From Posidoniimonas corsicana (lineage in GTDB: Bacteria > Planctomycetota > Planctomycetia > Pirellulales > Lacipirellulaceae): DNA of 64,000 bases. Below, piece by piece: positions 1,808 through 61,606 of the stretch (its first letter is position 1; each line of letters opens with the position of its first letter). A model generated the notes under the pieces. It saw only the letters and a list, made by a program, of their open reading frames with translations. It searched no databases and was not told where the DNA came from. Where the stretch lies: contig NZ_SIHJ01000001.1 of the NCBI RefSeq assembly GCF_007859765.1, positions 4,071,156-4,135,155 of the forward strand, read 5' to 3'. The position numbers and the translations under genes are program-made.

Positions 1808-4516
1808 ATGGACGATACAGCCCGCCATCGGGTTCCCCCGGCAGCACGGCCCAGGTCTTGCCGCCCCCAACCTGGCCAGCCACGGTGGTTCGGCCTCTGG
1901 GTCGCCGCCGCGGCGCTGCTCTGGGCATCGCCGGCGCCGGCGCAGCAGGACGGCGCCACCGCCAGCAACAGCGCCCCAGCGAGCGAGAGCGCCACGGCCG
2001 CCAACACGGCCACCGCGCCCCCCAGCCCTGACGACGCGGCCAAGCCCGCGCCCGCTGCGGCAGCGCCCGAACAACCGGGCACGGCGCCCAATCCCGAGCC
2101 GATCGTCCTCCGCGAGTACACGGTCCTCCCGAAGGTGGGCGACTACCGGCGGACCATCATTTCACGCGACCCGATCGACGCGCTGATCGTCAGCGGCGAG
2201 TGGAGGATTCCCCAGCCCGGCGACAAGGTGACCGCGGCCGACGGCAAAGAAGCCGCCTGGCGATCAGTCGAGACCGCCGTCGACGGCGTGCTCGCGACCA
2301 AGGAGACCCGCGGCGGCTACGCCGTGGCCACCGTCACGCTCGACCAGGACCGGGTGATGGTCCTGGAGGCCCAGAAGCACGCCGCGGTCCGCGTGAACGG
2401 CGGCTGGCTCGCCGGCGACCCCTACGGCCACGGCTGGCTGCGGCTTCCGGTGCAGCTCGAGGCGGGCGACAACGAGCTGCTGTTCCACATGGCGCAGCCC
2501 GGCTTCCAGGCCCGCCTGGTCGCCCCACCGGCCGACGCTTACTTCATCCCAGAGAACGCCACCCTGCCCGATTTTGTGCGTGGCCAATCAGAAGAACGCT
2601 GGGCGGCCGTGCCGGTCGTCAACGCCACGGGCCAGACGCTCGCCGGCGCCGAGCTGCTACTCTCGCTCGATGGCGGCGAAGAGATCGCCGCCCCGCTCCC
2701 CAGCATCCCGCCGCTCTCGGCCTACAAGGCGCCGATCCGCCTGCCGGCGCCGGCCGCCGACAACCAGGCCGGGCACACGCTGCGGCTCTCGCTCAAGCTC
2801 CCCGGCGCCGACGACCAGTCGCCCGCGCCCGAGGCGACCCTGCGGATCCTCTCCACCGCGCCGGACGAGGCCCACGTGCGGACCTTCGTCAGCAAGATCG
2901 ACGGCGGCGTGCAGCCCTACACGCTGCTGCCGGCCGCCGACTCGACCGACCAAGAAGAACCGCCGGGCGTGATCCTCGCGCTGCACAGCGAGGGCGTCGA
3001 CCACCGCAAGTTCGCCGACAACTACCTCGCCAAGCCGTGGGCCCACATCGTCGCGCCCAGCAACCGGGGCGAGTACGGCTTCGACTGGGAGGACTGGGGC
3101 GCGACCGACGCCATGGAGGCCCTGGCCGACGCGCAGGCCCGCCTGCCGCACGACCCGCGGCGGGTGTACTGCACGGGGCACTCGATGGGCGGCCACGGCG
3201 CGTGGCGGCTGGGCGTGGTCCACCCCGACCGCTTCGCCGCGGTCGGCGCCAGCGCGGGCTGGCTCAGCCTGTGGAGCTACGGCGGCGGCATGCCCGTCTA
3301 TGAGGACCCGACGCCGGTCGAGGCGATGCTGCTCCGCGCCGCCTCGTCCAGCGACACCCTCAGCCAGCTCAACAACCTCGGCGGCCTGGGCGTGTACGTG
3401 CTGCACGGCGACCGCGACAGCCACGTCGGCGTGTCGCAGAGCCGGTTCATGCGGACGCGGCTGGGCGAGTTCCACCCGGACTTCGCCTACTTCGAGCGGA
3501 AGGGCGCGGGCAACTGGTGGGGCGCCGCCTGCTGCGACTGGCCGGCGATGATGGAGTTCTTCCGCGGCCGGTCGCTGCCCGAAGCGGGCCAGACGCGGCG
3601 CGTCGACTTCGCCACGCCCGACCTCGGCCTCGCCGCCAACTGCCACTGGGCCCGCATCGAAACCCAGGACGCGCAGGGCGAGCCTTCGGAGGTCTCGATC
3701 CGGCTGCTCAAGGAGTCCCGCGCGTTTATCGGCGCGACCGAGAACGTGCGTCGGCTGTCGCTCGACCCGTCCGGCCTGGACGGCGACCGGCCGGTCCGCG
3801 TCAAGCTGGACGGCGGCCGCGCGTTCTCGGCCAGGCCGTCCGCCGGCGGCCGCATCTGGCTCTCCCGCGACGACGACACCGGCCGGTGGTCGCAGATCGC
3901 CAACCCGCCGGTCGGCGGCAAGAGCCCCACGCGTCACGGCGGGTTCAAGTCGGCGTTCGACAACAACGCCATCCTGATCTACTCGACCGGCGGCTCCGAC
4001 GAGGAGAACGCGTGGTCGCTCGCCAAGGCGAGGTACGACGCGCAGTCGTTCTGGTGCCGCGGCAACGGCGCGCTGCAGGTGGTGGCCGACAAGGACTTCG
4101 ACGCCGCCCGCCAGCCGAACCGCAACGTGGTGCTGTACGGCAACGCCGACACCAACCTGGCCTGGCCGGCGCTGCTGTCGACGTCGCCGGTGCGGGTCCG
4201 CGGCGGCAAGATCGTGCTCGGCGGCAAGGGCCAGGACCGCGCCGAGGACGACGCCGGCCTCGCCGCGTTGTTCGTCCGCCCCCGCCCCCGCAGCAACACC
4301 GCCACGGTCGGCGTGGTCGCCGGCGCCGACCTGGCCGGCATGCGACTGACCGACCGCATCCGCTACTTCCATTCCGGCGTGGGCCTGCCCGACATCACGA
4401 TCCTGGGCCCCGAGTCCCCCGCCGAGGGCGACTACGGCGTGCGCGCAGTTGGCTACTTCGGCCACGACTGGAGCGTCGACTCCGGCGACATCGCCTGGCG
4501 CGACACGGCGCTGTAG
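1808..4516 (+). CDS. Large secreted alpha/beta hydrolase, prolyl oligopeptidase/esterase type
   Basis: 902 residues. A long basic N-terminus leads into a hydrophobic signal segment at about residues 31-45 ending SPAPAQ, so export is likely. An Ala/Pro/Thr-rich linker follows, then an N-terminal region with a beta-rich look. The catalytic domain has the nucleophile elbow GHSMGG near residue 459 (YCTGHSMGGHGAWR) and a probable acid/His region at YVLHGDRDSHVGV. The C-terminal 300 residues look like another beta-rich domain. This fits the S9 or polyhydroxybutyrate-depolymerase-like esterases common in planctomycetes; the substrate cannot be told. No partner genes are adjacent. Confidence 0.8.
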   Translation: MDDTARHRVPPAARPRSCRPQPGQPRWFGLWVAAAALLWASPAPAQQDGATASNSAPASESATAANTATAPPSPDDAAKPAPAAAAPEQPGTAPNPEPIVLREYTVLPKVGDYRRTIISRDPIDALIVSGEWRIPQPGDKVTAADGKEAAWRSVETAVDGVLATKETRGGYAVATVTLDQDRVMVLEAQKHAAVRVNGGWLAGDPYGHGWLRLPVQLEAGDNELLFHMAQPGFQARLVAPPADAYFIPENATLPDFVRGQSEERWAAVPVVNATGQTLAGAELLLSLDGGEEIAAPLPSIPPLSAYKAPIRLPAPAADNQAGHTLRLSLKLPGADDQSPAPEATLRILSTAPDEAHVRTFVSKIDGGVQPYTLLPAADSTDQEEPPGVILALHSEGVDHRKFADNYLAKPWAHIVAPSNRGEYGFDWEDWGATDAMEALADAQARLPHDPRRVYCTGHSMGGHGAWRLGVVHPDRFAAVGASAGWLSLWSYGGGMPVYEDPTPVEAMLLRAASSSDTLSQLNNLGGLGVYVLHGDRDSHVGVSQSRFMRTRLGEFHPDFAYFERKGAGNWWGAACCDWPAMMEFFRGRSLPEAGQTRRVDFATPDLGLAANCHWARIETQDAQGEPSEVSIRLLKESRAFIGATENVRRLSLDPSGLDGDRPVRVKLDGGRAFSARPSAGGRIWLSRDDDTGRWSQIANPPVGGKSPTRHGGFKSAFDNNAILIYSTGGSDEENAWSLAKARYDAQSFWCRGNGALQVVADKDFDAARQPNRNVVLYGNADTNLAWPALLSTSPVRVRGGKIVLGGKGQDRAEDDAGLAALFVRPRPRSNTATVGVVAGADLAGMRLTDRIRYFHSGVGLPDITILGPESPAEGDYGVRAVGYFGHDWSVDSGDIAWRDTAL

Positions 4517-7179: not shown

Positions 7180-7490
7180 GTAGAAAACGGCCACCCAGAG
7201 CGGTCCAATAGATGAACCCTTTCCTTCACGCGCGAACAAGGCGGCGTTGTAGTAGCGCCGACCGCCGCGGTGTGCTGCGCGGTTGGTTCTTGAGCGGAAA
7301 AGTCTTGCCAGCAGCCAGGGAGGTTTTGTCCATTTTGGTCCCTCGTGAGGACCCCAAATCGGACAAAACCCCCGCGTCCCAATCCCAGCCGAACGGAGGA
7401 AACACTGCAATACAAGGGTGAAGCGATCGCTGCGGAGGAAATAGGCGCGGGGTTTTGTCCCCTCCGCTCGTGTTTTTGGACAAAACCAGG
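7180..7490 (+). mobile_element. Decayed relative of the HTH-gene element at 52.1-53.0 kb
   Basis: The left part GTAGAAAACGGCCACCC (7180-7196) matches 52131-52148. The right part has GGACAAAAC boxes at 7361 and 7478, 117 bases apart, as against 119 bases in the HTH gene (52807 and 52926). The second box is preceded in both by near-identical text (TCGTGTTTTTGGACAAAAC). Here the boxes also form hairpins with GGTTTTGTCC at 7322 and 7451. The distance from left part to right part is about 180 bases here and about 675 there, so the coding centre is missing or replaced. Confidence 0.55.
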
Positions 7491-51696: not shown

Positions 51697-52217
51697 CCGC
51701 GTCCTGTTCAGCCCCATCCTGTTCAAGCGATCGCGGTGGGCGTTGGCTTTGCTGCCGCCCACTCTGCAAACTAGACGACCGCACACAGCGGCCAACGGCC
51801 CCACGACCACCGCGGCCAGCACGTTGGGGCGTCCGAGTGTATCGCCGTTTCTCCGAAACGGCGTTCGTCACTGCTCGGAGAGCTGTGGATACCTTCTGTG
51901 TCGTGACCTCTATTCCAACCAGTCCGTAGGCCAGATCAAGCGGCGCATGACGCTGCGTTAGCTAACCGACGCGGCCGCCGCGCTGCTCCGGCGGAATCGA
52001 TCTGGCTGCGGTGAGAAGGCCGAATTGCCGGAACGGCGCGGCGGTTGGGCGTGGCGGGGTGGCTTGCTTTTCGCGCCGCTTGGTCCGGCCTACGGCGGCG
52101 CCTCGAACGCTGTTTTTTCCGGGGTTTTTGGTAGAAAACAGGCCACCCTGTCGGATAGAAAGGGGTGTGTACGCGTGTACACACTCGCTTTCTAAACGCT
52201 ATCGATGGGGGGTAACC
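51697..52217 (+). other. Intergenic region with hairpin and the left part of the HTH-gene element
   Basis: About 520 bases without a supported gene. A hairpin CGCCGTTT-CTCCG-AAACGGCG lies at 51843-51863 without a T run. At 52131-52148 lies GTAGAAAACAGGCCACCC, shared with 7180 and 61547. At 52166-52183 lies a TGTGTAC-GCGT-GTACACA palindrome, about 35 bases before the HTH gene start, a possible autoregulatory site. Confidence 0.5.
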
Positions 52218-52994
52218 ATGAGTCGGCCACGGGTGCTCGATGAGACCAAGCGGCGAGAGGTTTGCGCGCTGCTCACGGCGGGGATGACGCTCGGCAGCGC
52301 GGCCGAGTACGTGGGGTGCAGCGTCAAGACGATCCGCCGCGAGCGGGACGGCGATGACGACTTCGACCTCCAGGTGCGACGGGCCAAGATGGCCGCGCGG
52401 CTGGGGCCGCTGCAGGCGGTGCGGCGCGCGGCGGAAACGCACTGGCGGGCCGCGGCCTGGCTGGTGGAGCGGCAGGAGCGGCGCGACAAGCAACGCCGCG
52501 TGGACCGGCGGCGGCGGGTCGAACTGGAGCGGATGGTGGGCCAGGTGAAGGAGGTGGTGCGGCGCGAGGTTCCCAGCCTGCCACAGCAGTGGGCCATCGA
52601 GGAGCAGATCGACCAGATCGCTACCGGCCGAAAGCCGCGCGACCCAGAGCCAAGCCTGCCGGAAGTCGATCAACCGGCGCCGCCCGTCAGGGCGAAACGC
52701 GAATCGCCGATCCCGGCCGCGCTGCGGGAGATTGCCGAACGCGTCGCCGCCACAGTCGACGAGCAGCCGCCGGCTGGCCAATCGTCCGACGCCGATGCGC
52801 CGGATCGGACAAAACCCCCGGAGGTCACACAGGCCACAAATGCGGCGGAACCCGCGGCAGAAGTGCCGAACGGCGATGAGCCGCCAACGAGTGAGCCGGG
52901 TTCTGTCCCCTCGCTTCGTGTTTTTGGACAAAACGAGTTGGACAAGGAGAAGCAAAGTTTAGCGGCGGAGCCGGTGAGAAGAACCGGGGGCTAA
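52218..52994 (+). CDS. Helix-turn-helix protein of a planctomycete element
   Basis: 258 residues. The ATG at 52218 has a GGGG-rich ribosome site. The N-terminal third is an HTH of the terminase-small-subunit or resolvase kind: REVCALLTAGMTLGSAAEYV followed by GCSVKTIRRERDGDDDF. A basic helical middle (LVERQERRDKQRRVDRRRRV) follows. The C-terminal 90 residues are low complexity and coincide with GGACAAAAC repeats, so this part of the protein may be encoded by repeat DNA. Probably a DNA-binding protein; whether it moves itself is unknown. Confidence 0.65.
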   Translation: MSRPRVLDETKRREVCALLTAGMTLGSAAEYVGCSVKTIRRERDGDDDFDLQVRRAKMAARLGPLQAVRRAAETHWRAAAWLVERQERRDKQRRVDRRRRVELERMVGQVKEVVRREVPSLPQQWAIEEQIDQIATGRKPRDPEPSLPEVDQPAPPVRAKRESPIPAALREIAERVAATVDEQPPAGQSSDADAPDRTKPPEVTQATNAAEPAAEVPNGDEPPTSEPGSVPSLRVFGQNELDKEKQSLAAEPVRRTGG

Positions 52995-53122
52995 CGCCCC
53001 GCGGCTGAAGAGGGGAGCTCAGGTACAGCGCAACGAGTTTGGCGCCGCTACGAGCCCTCGGCGTCAGCCGGGGGAGCAGCGCGAATAAGCCCGGCGGCTA
53101 ACCGCGGTGGGTGCGCGGTGGG

Positions 53123-54829
53123 TTAGGCGGCGTCAACGGCTACAGGTTGCTCGCTGCGGCGGGGGCGTGTGCGCGGGCCGTTGAGCATCCGCCCGATCCA
53201 CGTGTAGCGGACCAGCCAGTCGTAGCTGAGCAGCAGGAGCGCGCTGACCACGCCCAGCAGCAGGCCGATCTTGCCGAGCGACGGGAACACCCAGCCGGCG
53301 ATCAGGTACTGCCCGATGATCACCACCGGCAGGTGCGCCAGGTAGAGCCAGTACGACGAGTCGGACAGGTACCGCATGACGCGGCTCTCATCGCTGTAGA
53401 CCGCGGCGAACAGGCCCATCGAGCCGAACACCATCAGCCAGACGTACAGCACCTGCAGCAGCGAAGCGAGCGGGTGGAACCACGCGGGGTCGAGCCACGC
53501 GTCGCGGAGGCCCCACGGGCCGAGCGTGACCTCGTACCCGAGCGGGAACACCACCAGCAGCGCGACCGGCAGCGTCCACCGCCAGCCGCGGGTCAGGCGG
53601 CCGGCGCCGTCGTGCGCGTCGTAGTACCAGGCGCCGACGAAGAAGAACAGCGCGTAGTACAGCAGGATGTGCGGCGCCGGGATCAGGCCGGTGGACGTGT
53701 CGGGGCCGTAGAGGGTTTCGAGCTCGCCCATCATCCACTGCGGCACGAGGGTCGCGGGCACGAGCCACAGCCACCGCAGCGGCGACAGCAGCGCCGCGGC
53801 CGGCGGGCCGCGCCACGCGAACCGGTCGGCCAGCCACGCGTAGACCGCGAACGCCGGGATCAGCCAGCACAGGTACCACAAGAACCACAGGTGGTGGAAC
53901 ACCGGGAAGTAGACCAGCATGAAGTACAGGCCGCTGATCAGCGCGTTGCTGGCGGGCGGGGGCGGCGCGCCGTCGGCGCCGGCGGCCTGCTCGAGCATCG
54001 GGATCAGCGCCGCGCGGCCCTCCTCGACCTGCGTGCGGCTGACCTCGATGCCGATCAGCTCGGAGAAGAACCTGGTGGTGACCCAATCGACCCGGGCGTT
54101 GTCGAGCGGCGTCGAGCCCAGGCGGTTGGTCGCCGTGGGGTTGGCGTCGTGGGCGAGCAGCAGCCGGCAGCACTCGTCCCGTCCAAAGAAGGCCGCGACG
54201 TGCAGCGGGGTGTCCTGGTCGCGGCTGCCAAAGTCTGGGTCGGCGCCGCTCTCCAGCAGGTACGCGACCAGCTCGTCGTGCCCGAGGGCGATCGCCGAGC
54301 CGAGCGGCGTGGCGCCGCTCCCGGGGTGGCGGAGGTTGAGGTCGGCGCCCGAGTCCACGTACGCACGCACCGGTTCGAGCTGGCCCCCGTTGACGGCTTC
54401 CCAGAACTGCTCGGCCTGCGTGGGCGGGGCGGACGAGTCGTCGGGCTTAGCGGCCAGTTCTCCCGCGATTGCGACGAAGATGAACGCGGCCCAGGTGGCG
54501 GGGACGATGGTGAACATCCCAACGAACAGCGGCAGGCCGATCCGCCGCGCGCGGTGCGTGAGCAGCGCCTTCAGGCCGCGGCTCCGCCACAGCATGGCGG
54601 TGAAGAACCCGCTGAGGAGGAAGAACAGCGGCATGCGGAACCCGTGGATCGCCGCCATTAGCAGGTCGTACACGCCGTTGGCCGAGACGTCGGTCACCGG
54701 CCACGCGGCGGCGGTCTGCGGCGCGAACGAGAGGATCACGTGCAGCACGATGCCCAGCAGCATCGCGACCGCGCGGAGCGCGTCGAGGTCGTGGCGGCGG
54801 GCGGGGCGGTCTGGCAGCGGCTGGGCCAT
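53123..54829 (-). CDS. Acyltransferase with ankyrin repeats inserted
   Basis: 568 residues with the ATG at 54829. An acyltransferase-3/OpgC-type membrane protein: LDALRAVAMLLGIVLHVILS starts the family, and GFRMPLFFLLSGFFTAM and RRIGLPLFVGM are conserved. After about residue 125 comes a soluble insert of ankyrin repeats (about 137-262: GADLNLRHPGSGATPLGSAI, GADPDFGSRDQDTPLHVAAF, NPTATNRLGSTPLDNA). The acyltransferase helices resume at about residue 290. It probably moves acyl groups onto an envelope glycan, with the repeats as a binding module. Confidence 0.85.
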   Translation of the reverse strand: MAQPLPDRPARRHDLDALRAVAMLLGIVLHVILSFAPQTAAAWPVTDVSANGVYDLLMAAIHGFRMPLFFLLSGFFTAMLWRSRGLKALLTHRARRIGLPLFVGMFTIVPATWAAFIFVAIAGELAAKPDDSSAPPTQAEQFWEAVNGGQLEPVRAYVDSGADLNLRHPGSGATPLGSAIALGHDELVAYLLESGADPDFGSRDQDTPLHVAAFFGRDECCRLLLAHDANPTATNRLGSTPLDNARVDWVTTRFFSELIGIEVSRTQVEEGRAALIPMLEQAAGADGAPPPPASNALISGLYFMLVYFPVFHHLWFLWYLCWLIPAFAVYAWLADRFAWRGPPAAALLSPLRWLWLVPATLVPQWMMGELETLYGPDTSTGLIPAPHILLYYALFFFVGAWYYDAHDGAGRLTRGWRWTLPVALLVVFPLGYEVTLGPWGLRDAWLDPAWFHPLASLLQVLYVWLMVFGSMGLFAAVYSDESRVMRYLSDSSYWLYLAHLPVVIIGQYLIAGWVFPSLGKIGLLLGVVSALLLLSYDWLVRYTWIGRMLNGPRTRPRRSEQPVAVDAA

Positions 54830-54920
54830 GTTTGCGTTCCGGGGCGGGGCGGCCTCAGTGTAGCGGAAGAGAGTCCTTCGCCCGGGCGGCCGGGATCTTG
54901 GCGTAGGCAGGCGGAAACGG

Positions 54921-56978
54921 CTACCGGCGGCGGCGGCGGATCGCCAACGCGGCCCAGGCCGCCGGCGCGAGCAGCCACGCGGCTGGTTCGGGGACCGCCC
55001 CAACGCCGGCGGCGGGCAGCCGGGCGCCGTAGTTCATCCGCCAGACCTGGTAGTCCGCCTGGGTTACCTGGCCGTCGCCGTTGCCGTCGGCGCCCTGGCC
55101 GGGGGCGGCGACCGAGTTGCCCAGGGCGTCGCGCCACACGGTGTAGTCGGCCGCGTCGACCGAGCCATCGGCGTTGTAGTCGCCCAGCAGGAACGGGAGC
55201 GTAAGTGACTCTACCGTGCCGTCCTCGGCGAGCTGCACTTGGGCCACGTGCTCGGCGCCCGCCCAGGTAACGGTCACCAGCTGCTGGCCCTTAAACGCCC
55301 GCAGGGAAGCCTCGCCTTGGTCGTTAGTGGCGAGCGACTCGTCGGTCCACCACTCGCCGAACACCAGGTCGATGAACGCCTGGCCGTTGGGCTTGATGCT
55401 CCAGTCGCTGCGGAACAGGGCGGCGTCGGGCGCGAAGTGGGCGTCCTCCCAGAAGCCCCACATCACCACGTCCGACACGCCCTCGTGGGCGAACATCGCG
55501 GTCATGAAGTCGCGGAGGTACTCGGCCTGGAGCTGCTCGTCGGTGGTGTTGTAGTCGAACTCGGTGACCTGCACGTCGAGGCCCAAGTCGGCGTAGCGGT
55601 CGACGATCTGCCACAGGCGCTCGGGGCCGGTGAGGCTGGCGTCGGAGAAGTGCCCCTGCAGGCCGACGCCGTCGACCGGCGCGCCGGCGTCGATGAGGGC
55701 TTCGAGCTGGTCCTCGAGCAGCCGCTGGTTAGACGTGTCGACCCCGCCGCCCGAGGTGAGGATGCCGTACTCGTTGAGGTAGAGCCTGGCGTCGGGCGCG
55801 GCGGCGGCGGCCAGCTGGAACCATTCGGCCATGGCGGCGTCGCCCTCGGGCAGGTTGTCCATGATGTCGTGGTTGGCGCGGGGCTCGTTCACGACGTCCC
55901 ACCAGCCGATGCGTCCGGAGAACTCGCCGGCCAGGTCGGCGATGTGGCCGGCCACCCGGTCGCGCAGCTGCTGCTGCTCGGCCGTGTTGAGCGGCGCGCC
56001 GGCCAGCAGCGAGCGAACGTCCGCCGGCAGGTTAGACTCGCCCGGCCAGACCAGCACGTGCCCGCGGGCCGCGATGCCGTGCGACTCAAGCCAGTCGAGC
56101 GTCTGCGCGGCGCCCGCGCGGGTGAAGTTGCTCCCCCACTCGCCTTCCCAGGGAGGCCACTTGAGGTTGTTTTCGATGGTCGCGATGTTGAACAGCTCGG
56201 CCACCTTGTCCTTGTAGTCGTCGTGCACCGGGTTGTTGTCGCGGAGGCGGACCGCCTGCACGGCGGAGCCGAAGCCGAACGCGTGCGACTGCTGCCGCAC
56301 CCGCACGCCGGCCCCGGCGACCTCCGCGCCGCTGGCGTCGGTCACGCGGACGGTGAGGTCGGCCTTGCGGACGGCGTCGATCCGCGCGGCGGCCTCGGCC
56401 CGCCAGGGCGCGTCGGGCGCGTGGCCCTCGTACGGCGGGGGCGGCGGGGCGTCGGTGCTGACCAGCAGGTTGTCGAAGGTGAGGTCGAACGGCTCGGGCG
56501 AGGCCCACTGCCCCTCGACGGCCCAGTTGGTGATCTGCGACAGGTCCGGCGGCGTGTCGACGAAGCCGCTGCCGTCGTACACGGCGTCGGGCTCGGCCAG
56601 CGTGTTGAGCGAAGTCAGCCGCACCGGTTCGCCCGGCGTGTAGCCGCTGGCGTTGAAGTTCCACCGCCCGGACAAGCCGGACGCGTCGTTCAATTGAACC
56701 AGGAAGAAGTCGGTCCCATGGGCGGCGTTCGGTGTGAAGTCGACCACCAGCCGCCCGTCGGCGAAGCCCGAGAGGTCGAGCGTCTGGTTCACCACGCCGG
56801 CGCCCCAGCCGTCCGCCGGGTCATACAACCGGACGCTGCCGGCATCGGACTGCTGCTCGAAGCCGCCGTAGGTGTAGGAGAACCCCGCGCCATCGAAGTC
56901 GGAAAGCACGAATTCATCGCCGCGGCAGACCACCGCGGCGGCAAGCAACAACACAACAGCAGGGGCGGAGCGGAGCAT
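54921..56978 (-). CDS. GH10 endo-1,4-beta-xylanase with dockerin and PEP-CTERM
   Basis: 685 residues with the ATG at 56978. A signal peptide (APAVVLLLAAAVVCRG) is followed by a carbohydrate-binding-like beta domain (about residues 22-175), then GH10: acid/base Glu in WWDVVNEPRANHD, nucleophile Glu in DVQVTEFDYN. A short beta module follows, then a dockerin-like pair (DYNADGSVDAADYTVW, DGNGDGQVTQADYQVW), then PEP-CTERM (AVPEPAAWLLAPAAWAALAI, RRRRR). It degrades xylan outside the cell and is probably sorted to the envelope by exosortase. Confidence 0.93.
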   Translation of the reverse strand: MLRSAPAVVLLLAAAVVCRGDEFVLSDFDGAGFSYTYGGFEQQSDAGSVRLYDPADGWGAGVVNQTLDLSGFADGRLVVDFTPNAAHGTDFFLVQLNDASGLSGRWNFNASGYTPGEPVRLTSLNTLAEPDAVYDGSGFVDTPPDLSQITNWAVEGQWASPEPFDLTFDNLLVSTDAPPPPPYEGHAPDAPWRAEAAARIDAVRKADLTVRVTDASGAEVAGAGVRVRQQSHAFGFGSAVQAVRLRDNNPVHDDYKDKVAELFNIATIENNLKWPPWEGEWGSNFTRAGAAQTLDWLESHGIAARGHVLVWPGESNLPADVRSLLAGAPLNTAEQQQLRDRVAGHIADLAGEFSGRIGWWDVVNEPRANHDIMDNLPEGDAAMAEWFQLAAAAAPDARLYLNEYGILTSGGGVDTSNQRLLEDQLEALIDAGAPVDGVGLQGHFSDASLTGPERLWQIVDRYADLGLDVQVTEFDYNTTDEQLQAEYLRDFMTAMFAHEGVSDVVMWGFWEDAHFAPDAALFRSDWSIKPNGQAFIDLVFGEWWTDESLATNDQGEASLRAFKGQQLVTVTWAGAEHVAQVQLAEDGTVESLTLPFLLGDYNADGSVDAADYTVWRDALGNSVAAPGQGADGNGDGQVTQADYQVWRMNYGARLPAAGVGAVPEPAAWLLAPAAWAALAIRRRRR

Positions 56979-61546: not shown

Positions 61547-61562
61547 GTAGAAACCGGCCACC
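61547..61562 (+). repeat. Third copy of the GTAGAAA-GGCCACC motif
   Basis: GTAGAAACCGGCCACC resembles 7180-7196 and 52131-52148; CTAATAGGGGGAG follows, as GGATAGAAAGGGG does at 52154. No HTH gene is attached here. Confidence 0.45.
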
Positions 61563-61606
61563 TGAGGCCCTCTAATAGGGGGAGTCGCTCACAGCTGAGC
61601 CTCGAG

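Follow-up and report, generated by a model that had tools for sequence, protein, structure and literature searches.

INTRODUCTION

The described systems closest to the locus analyzed here are the TerS/pac modules of phages, the REPIN/RAYT repeats, and the insertion sequences with their MITEs. The pac site of phage P22 is part of terS itself, and in SPP1 several contacts are used; the recognition of DNA by TerS in pac phages is described as weak and hard to study in vitro (PMC9611059). The REP palindromes carry at one end a GTAG or CGTC tag (PMC3733652).

The present locus is found in the planctomycete Posidoniimonas corsicana (Lacipirellulaceae), in a window of 64,000 nucleotides, i.e., the whole stretch of DNA analyzed (contig NZ_SIHJ01000001.1, positions 4,071,156 to 4,135,155). 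As in phages, the protein is TerS-like in sequence and in N-terminal fold, and its candidate array of boxes overlaps the 3′ part of its own gene, like pac in terS of P22 (PMC9611059). Unlike in phages, more than 100 arrays of putative sites are dispersed here, and no phage genes were noted adjoining the window copy. With REPIN/RAYT systems, the locus has in common that short palindromes are scattered in many copies over a genome and that few loci contain the gene; in contrast to them, this gene encodes a TerS-like protein instead of a Y1 transposase, the stems are without the GTAG/CGTC tag, and the elements have a promoter-like motif at one side and a fixed multi-box array. As with insertion sequences and their MITEs, short members retain the outer parts of the long member without the gene, whereas neither terminal inverted repeats nor target duplication were seen and no catalytic domain was recognized. 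The TerS-like protein and the dispersed palindromic arrays are each of a known kind. Their combination is without counterpart in the literature searched, where no description of an element with a TerS-like gene and dispersed arrays was found (preprints and subscription journals were poorly covered).

RESULTS

The element of the window and its copies

The initial annotation had placed at 52131–52994 an element made of a left motif, a TGTGTAC palindrome, an HTH gene, and two boxes 119 bases apart in the tail of the gene. The sequence observations hold; the boundaries and the meaning change. The left motif GTAGAAAACAGGCCACCC (52131–52148) has 0.01 matches expected at three mismatches or fewer, and the palindrome occurs once against 0.07 expected. 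The gene has the extent proposed and both GGACAAAAC boxes lie within its coding tail (Table 1). The spacing of 119 bases between these boxes is real, and the pair is only part of a genome-wide array. In the alignment, three close copies share limits at ∼51924 and 53009, so that the common unit is wider than had been thought and includes an upstream inverted repeat (the label “GTAG-type REP” for it is borrowed from PMC3733652). Outside these limits, the flanks of the three copies are unrelated. The left motif had also been reported at 7180 and 61547; variants do exist there, one base shorter (GTAGAAAACGGCCACCC and GTAGAAACCGGCCACCT), and the full 18-mer has no second copy within the window at three mismatches or fewer.

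Table 1. Features of the gene-bearing element and of related elements in the window
Feature	Positions	Strand	Basis or remark
Unit common to three close copies (long member and upstream inverted repeat)	51924–53009	+	Alignment; limits approximate
Left arm of upstream GTAG-type inverted repeat (REP-like)	51924–51946	+	23 nt, 91% complementary to 52073–52095
Right arm of upstream GTAG-type inverted repeat	52073–52095	-	Pairs with 51924–51946
Left motif, promoter-like: GTAGAAAACAGGCCACC, then TAGAAA at 52156–52161	52131–52161	+	Sequence; putative promoter
TGTGTACGCGTGTACACAC palindrome, candidate operator	52166–52184	.	Present in all three close copies
Gene for 258-aa terminase-small-subunit-like HTH protein	52218–52994	+	PHROGs, fold model
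Array box 1, GGACAAAAC	52807–52815	+	Sequence
Array box 2, GTTCTGTCC, one change from GTTTTGTCC	52900–52908	-	Sequence
Array box 3, GGACAAAAC	52926–52934	+	Sequence
Short (gene-less) member: left motif at 7180, hairpins at 7324–7368 and 7453–7485	7180–7485	+	0 hairpins expected by chance
Lone left motif and TCTAAT box, promoter-like half-element	61547–61577	+	No box array within 450 nt downstream

With 52100–53000 as the BLAST query against the own genome (40 of 242 candidates scored), three full copies of ∼1.1 kb are found at 90% DNA identity: that of the window, C4:22869-23767, and C1:1040170-1041067. A fourth copy, partial and diverged, has the same layout, and at least 36 short matches are limited to query positions 793–847, the second half of the array. 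A fifth, distant homolog occurs at C5:209925 (28% identity). At the ends of the three-copy unit, which are approximate, no terminal inverted repeat or target duplication was seen by eye. Such features are absent from many known elements. As far as tested, no known insertion-sequence type fits (three copies at 90%, Pfam matches below cut-off), as had been supposed. The neighboring gene at 53123–55003 (minus strand) appears, by eye, to code for a membrane protein of the acyltransferase type into which ankyrin-like repeats are inserted.

Gene-less arrays coupled to the left motif

Hairpins of the form TTTTGTCC-N8-38-GGACAAAA number 216 in the own genome and 119 in the sister species, with none in reversed controls. 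The exact array GGACAAAA-N80-92-TTTTGTCC occurs 127 times in the own genome and 88 times in the sister species, against 0 in the reversed control of both. The same array is found 12 times in one relative (G028), seven times in another (G027), at most twice in five others, and not at all in the remaining 70 of the 79 genomes. In 839 kb of DNA, mostly chosen for holding hairpins, there are 173 exact boxes (7.7 expected; eight in the reversed control), of which three are isolated.

A set of 60 two-hairpin arrays of the own genome was drawn mostly from hairpin-selected windows and search loci and includes one diverged gene copy (L004); the finder admits up to two substitutions per hairpin, so that strongly changed hairpins are missed and compensated pairs are admissible. 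In this set, the left motif is present on one side in 58 at three errors or fewer, and on the other side in eight; the remaining two arrays have it at four errors, with a −10-like box. The distance from motif to array is 65–206 nt where no gene lies between and 531 nt in the diverged gene copy. Conservation by column begins ∼7 nt before GTAG and stops right after the second hairpin, in a set of 59 arrays from which one is left out (L035, no left motif at three errors or fewer) and in which the first L096 array stands in the wrong orientation, its motif being on the other side. Elements other than that of the window have the same left motif followed by a TCYAAT-like box, with the spacing kept, which gives a promoter-like layout; in the sister species, a −10 pattern of the own type precedes only four of 12 exact arrays. 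In the initial annotation, a left motif spread through the genome without regard to the HTH gene, and with no sharp limits, was held to speak against such an element. Half of this is observed: the motif is mostly gene-less, yet it is tied to the array and its conservation has sharp limits. Because of this coupling, and because conservation starts and stops sharply, the left motif belongs to the element.

The elements are intergenic and without fixed orientation to their neighbors, as judged with a home-made ORF caller; of 40 downstream genes, 20 point in the same direction as the element, so that a role as cis-regulatory leader is unsupported. Their orientation relative to replication is, by eye, mixed. 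Since motif and array are coupled and dispersed between genes, the unit of the window is the gene-bearing, “long” form of an element family, most members of which are gene-less and “short.”

Two relatives show other arrangements. In G028, the 12 arrays (e.g., C21:36097-36198) have the same outer boxes with another inner sequence, and its HTH homolog (L129) has no such boxes nearby. In G016, another family of 40-nt palindromes, TTTTGTCCCAN..TAGGGGTCCCATGTTTTGGGACAAAA, occurs at 26 places (e.g., C4:56846-56885), separate from the tail of the HTH gene (L121).

Resemblance of the protein to terminase small subunits

The window protein matches the terminase small subunit family phrog_4102 of PHROGs (E 2.7e-10), and so does every one of 30 homologs, with E-values no higher than 0.001. 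Four of these 30 match in addition phrog_4646 (a transposase family) and three a DNA-binding family. With Pfam, the window protein gives only weak matches below cut-off, and with NCBIfam none; no transposase catalytic domain was recognized in it with Pfam, NCBIfam, or PHROGs.

Modeled with AlphaFold2, the first 140 residues (pLDDT 93.7, pTM 0.67) have Sf6 TerS as best fold match, with Z 9.3 and rmsd 1.3 over 60 residues in a second-look aligner that re-ranks only the matches of Foldseek, to which the Z ranking is thus confined. The E-value of Foldseek itself for this match is 0.13. The HTH and the start of the long helix align with Sf6 TerS, and the fold evidence covers residues 4–63 only. A sequence search of the PDB ranks a different protein first (8vd6, E 2.1e-5) and gives Sf6 gp1 E-values of 0.24–0.31. 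In sequence and in the predicted fold of its N-terminal part, the protein of the repeated gene resembles the terminase small subunits of phages. The family phrog_2, which we take to be a large-terminase (TerL) family, gives in the own genome one weak partial match (E 1.1e-4, 118 of 807 positions). Packaging by a large terminase of the host itself is unsupported as far as this one TerL family goes.

Gene lineages and box types

Homologs of the gene occur in 59 of 79 relatives, with up to 11 per genome, and at 40 loci of the public collection (among others in Aeoliella straminimaris, Bythopirellula polymerisocia, Lacipirellula limnantheis, and Adhaeretor mobilis); viral contigs contain two distant homologs. 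In P. corsicana and the sister species, two separate gene lineages, A and B, are both present. The A genes of the two species share 74% identity in their first 95 residues; for the B genes, the identity is 69%–80% between species and 91%–97% within each. The base following GGACAAAA differs with the lineage: all eight boxes of the two A genes have G there (GGACAAAAG), and 26 of the 27 boxes of the nine B genes have C (GGACAAAAC), a match of gene and box that concerns two lineages in two related species and not independent events. The same two box types, A and B, occur in the gene-less arrays, the 59 arrays being split 26/33 by script, with L063 and one L083 array assigned to B although their inner boxes look like A.

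In the six B copies of the sister species, GGACAAAA is followed by TTTTGTCC 94 nt on (106 in one copy) and by GGACAAAA or GGACAGAA 25 nt further, with the boxes inside the coding tail. In Aeoliella, the eight gene copies (84%–93%) end in an array with stems GTTTTGGG/CCCAAAAC. There, the tail of the gene is dispersed also without the gene, and a promoter-like motif with a TYYAAT box can be recognized by eye upstream of eight of the 14 gene-less tails shown.

Of 29 homolog loci, 13 have a sequence similar to the left motif, GAAWN2-5GCCAC, in the 300 nt before the gene; it is present in 35 of 3861 background pieces and in none of the 29 reversed controls. Upstream of the other 16 loci, no such sequence was found. 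Its occurrence before homologs suggests that the left motif is an old promoter of the gene family. Relaxed sites of the GTAC type occur upstream of 19 of 48 homolog loci (a set with near-identical copies and loci fetched twice) and in 212 of 5795 background pieces. Control of the palindrome by LexA was considered and found unsupported: the lexA-like gene of L069 has no GWWC-N4-GWWC site between −400 and +200 nt. In Bythopirellula polymerisocia (L250), an HTH homolog (3001–3354) lies directly upstream of recA (∼3709 onward), which may be coincidence.

Retention and gain or loss of elements between species

Of 20 windows of the sister species, five are syntenic with windows of the own genome: two of them share an element, one has lineage-specific elements, and two are ambiguous. 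The two shared elements are at orthologous sites in both species, with middles that no longer align. At the lineage-specific locus, each species carries an element absent from the other. None of the syntenic windows offers a clean empty site. The gene has been amplified separately, with three close copies in the own genome, six in the sister species, and eight in Aeoliella; Lacipirellula limnantheis has five copies in two groups, 93%–97% within groups. Between the sister species, elements are therefore in part retained and in part gained or lost. Of the suggestion that the unit is “mobile or repeated,” the second term is borne out by the three copies at 90%; for the first, there is presence or absence between sister species at one locus only. 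No recombinase tied to the element was found, one of the five Y1 transposase loci having an ordinary element nearby. Because orthologous elements are kept, others are lineage-specific, and the gene is amplified per lineage, the comparison fits a slow spread of the elements with long retention.

DISCUSSION

We give about even weight to an explanation in which gene-bearing long members and gene-less short members belong to one family, with the TerS-like protein binding the array. A long member would be composed of a promoter (the left motif), a palindromic candidate operator, the orphan TerS-like gene, and an array of GGACAAAA boxes over the 3′ end of the gene; a short member would be a promoter and an array with just 65–206 nt between them, probably derived from a long member through loss of the gene body. 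The boxes alternate in strand at near-fixed spacing, and the protein most likely binds them as an oligomer presenting several HTHs. We infer the promoter activity of the left motif, the binding of protein to array, and the spreading of the element.

The short members might instead be genes for structured non-coding RNAs, with the left motif as promoter and the boxes as RNA stems, one of which was captured by the HTH gene. The promoter-like motif, the kept spacing, and the sharp start would suit such genes, as would the layout of the boxes in hairpins and the retention of orthologous elements while their middles diverge. We nevertheless hold this to be unlikely. Substitutions in the box pairs of the 59 arrays comprise 57 uncompensated and 0 compensated cases, which favors protein sites over RNA stems; the argument lowers the case for an RNA role without removing it, because invariant box pairs are uninformative on pairing. 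The mean mismatches per box, for boxes 0–3, are 0.54/0.04/0.04/0.15 in type A and 0.91/0.03/0.09/0.09 in type B: the two inner boxes are nearly invariant, whereas box 0, which pairs with one of them (box 1), is loose, contrary to what RNA stems would lead one to expect. No Rfam family reaches the gathering score in the window, and at six element loci there are, besides a neighboring tRNA, four miRNA-type matches far below cut-off, none of which is credible. Selection seems to act on the sequence and the spacing of the boxes, as on protein-binding sites.

There are two further explanations. If the arrays were REP/REPIN sequences mobilized by a RAYT-type Y1 transposase, with the HTH gene as a passenger, one would understand the high copy number of the palindromes, the five Y1_Tnp matches over cut-off in the genome, the GTAG-type inverted repeats adjoining some gene copies, and the element ∼320 nt from one Y1 locus (L058). 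That element, however, comes with a left motif of its own, like an ordinary member, and the searched boxes are absent from the fetched flanks of the other four of the five Y1 loci. By eye, no GTAG/CGTC tag stands next to the stems in the 59 arrays, and the one-sided promoter has no counterpart in the description of REPs in PMC3733652, as far as its available part goes. On this evidence, a Y1-driven family appears very improbable. The remaining explanation dispenses with a mobile system: the gene copies would come from duplicated segments or from flanking repeats that recombined, and the arrays would be ancient sites, regulatory or bound by nucleoid proteins, which the gene shares by chance. 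Other repeats able to recombine do flank the copies, target duplication was not seen, and two elements are orthologous in both species. Against it stand the separate amplifications of the gene (three copies in the own genome, six in the sister species, eight in Aeoliella, and five in Lacipirellula limnantheis), the promoter, gene, and array that remain together, and the locus with elements in one species only. We judge it as unlikely as the RNA genes.

Under the preferred explanation of long and short members with a protein that binds their arrays, the binding most likely resembles the one proposed for phage TerS at pac. A small DNA-binding protein seems to have coevolved with a large set of sites that match it. 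Once bound, the arrays may act in regulation or have a structural role, or they may be mobilized by a borrowed enzyme. More tentatively, and with distinctly less confidence than in the preferred explanation, one can envisage a phage packaging-initiation module turned free-standing: an orphan TerS-like protein with more than 100 coevolving, pac-like arrays on the chromosome, most of them behind a copy of the promoter of the gene. If true, this would be a class of self-spreading or chromosome-acting elements that depend on the recognition of sites by TerS instead of on a transposase.

More than 100 candidate arrays of nearly constant geometry in a natural genome, together with two protein lineages whose box types correspond, would allow the recognition code to be read directly. 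The elements would also add a repeat family that is not tied to Y1/RAYT transposases, and they would account for the conspicuous intergenic repeats in this family of planctomycetes.
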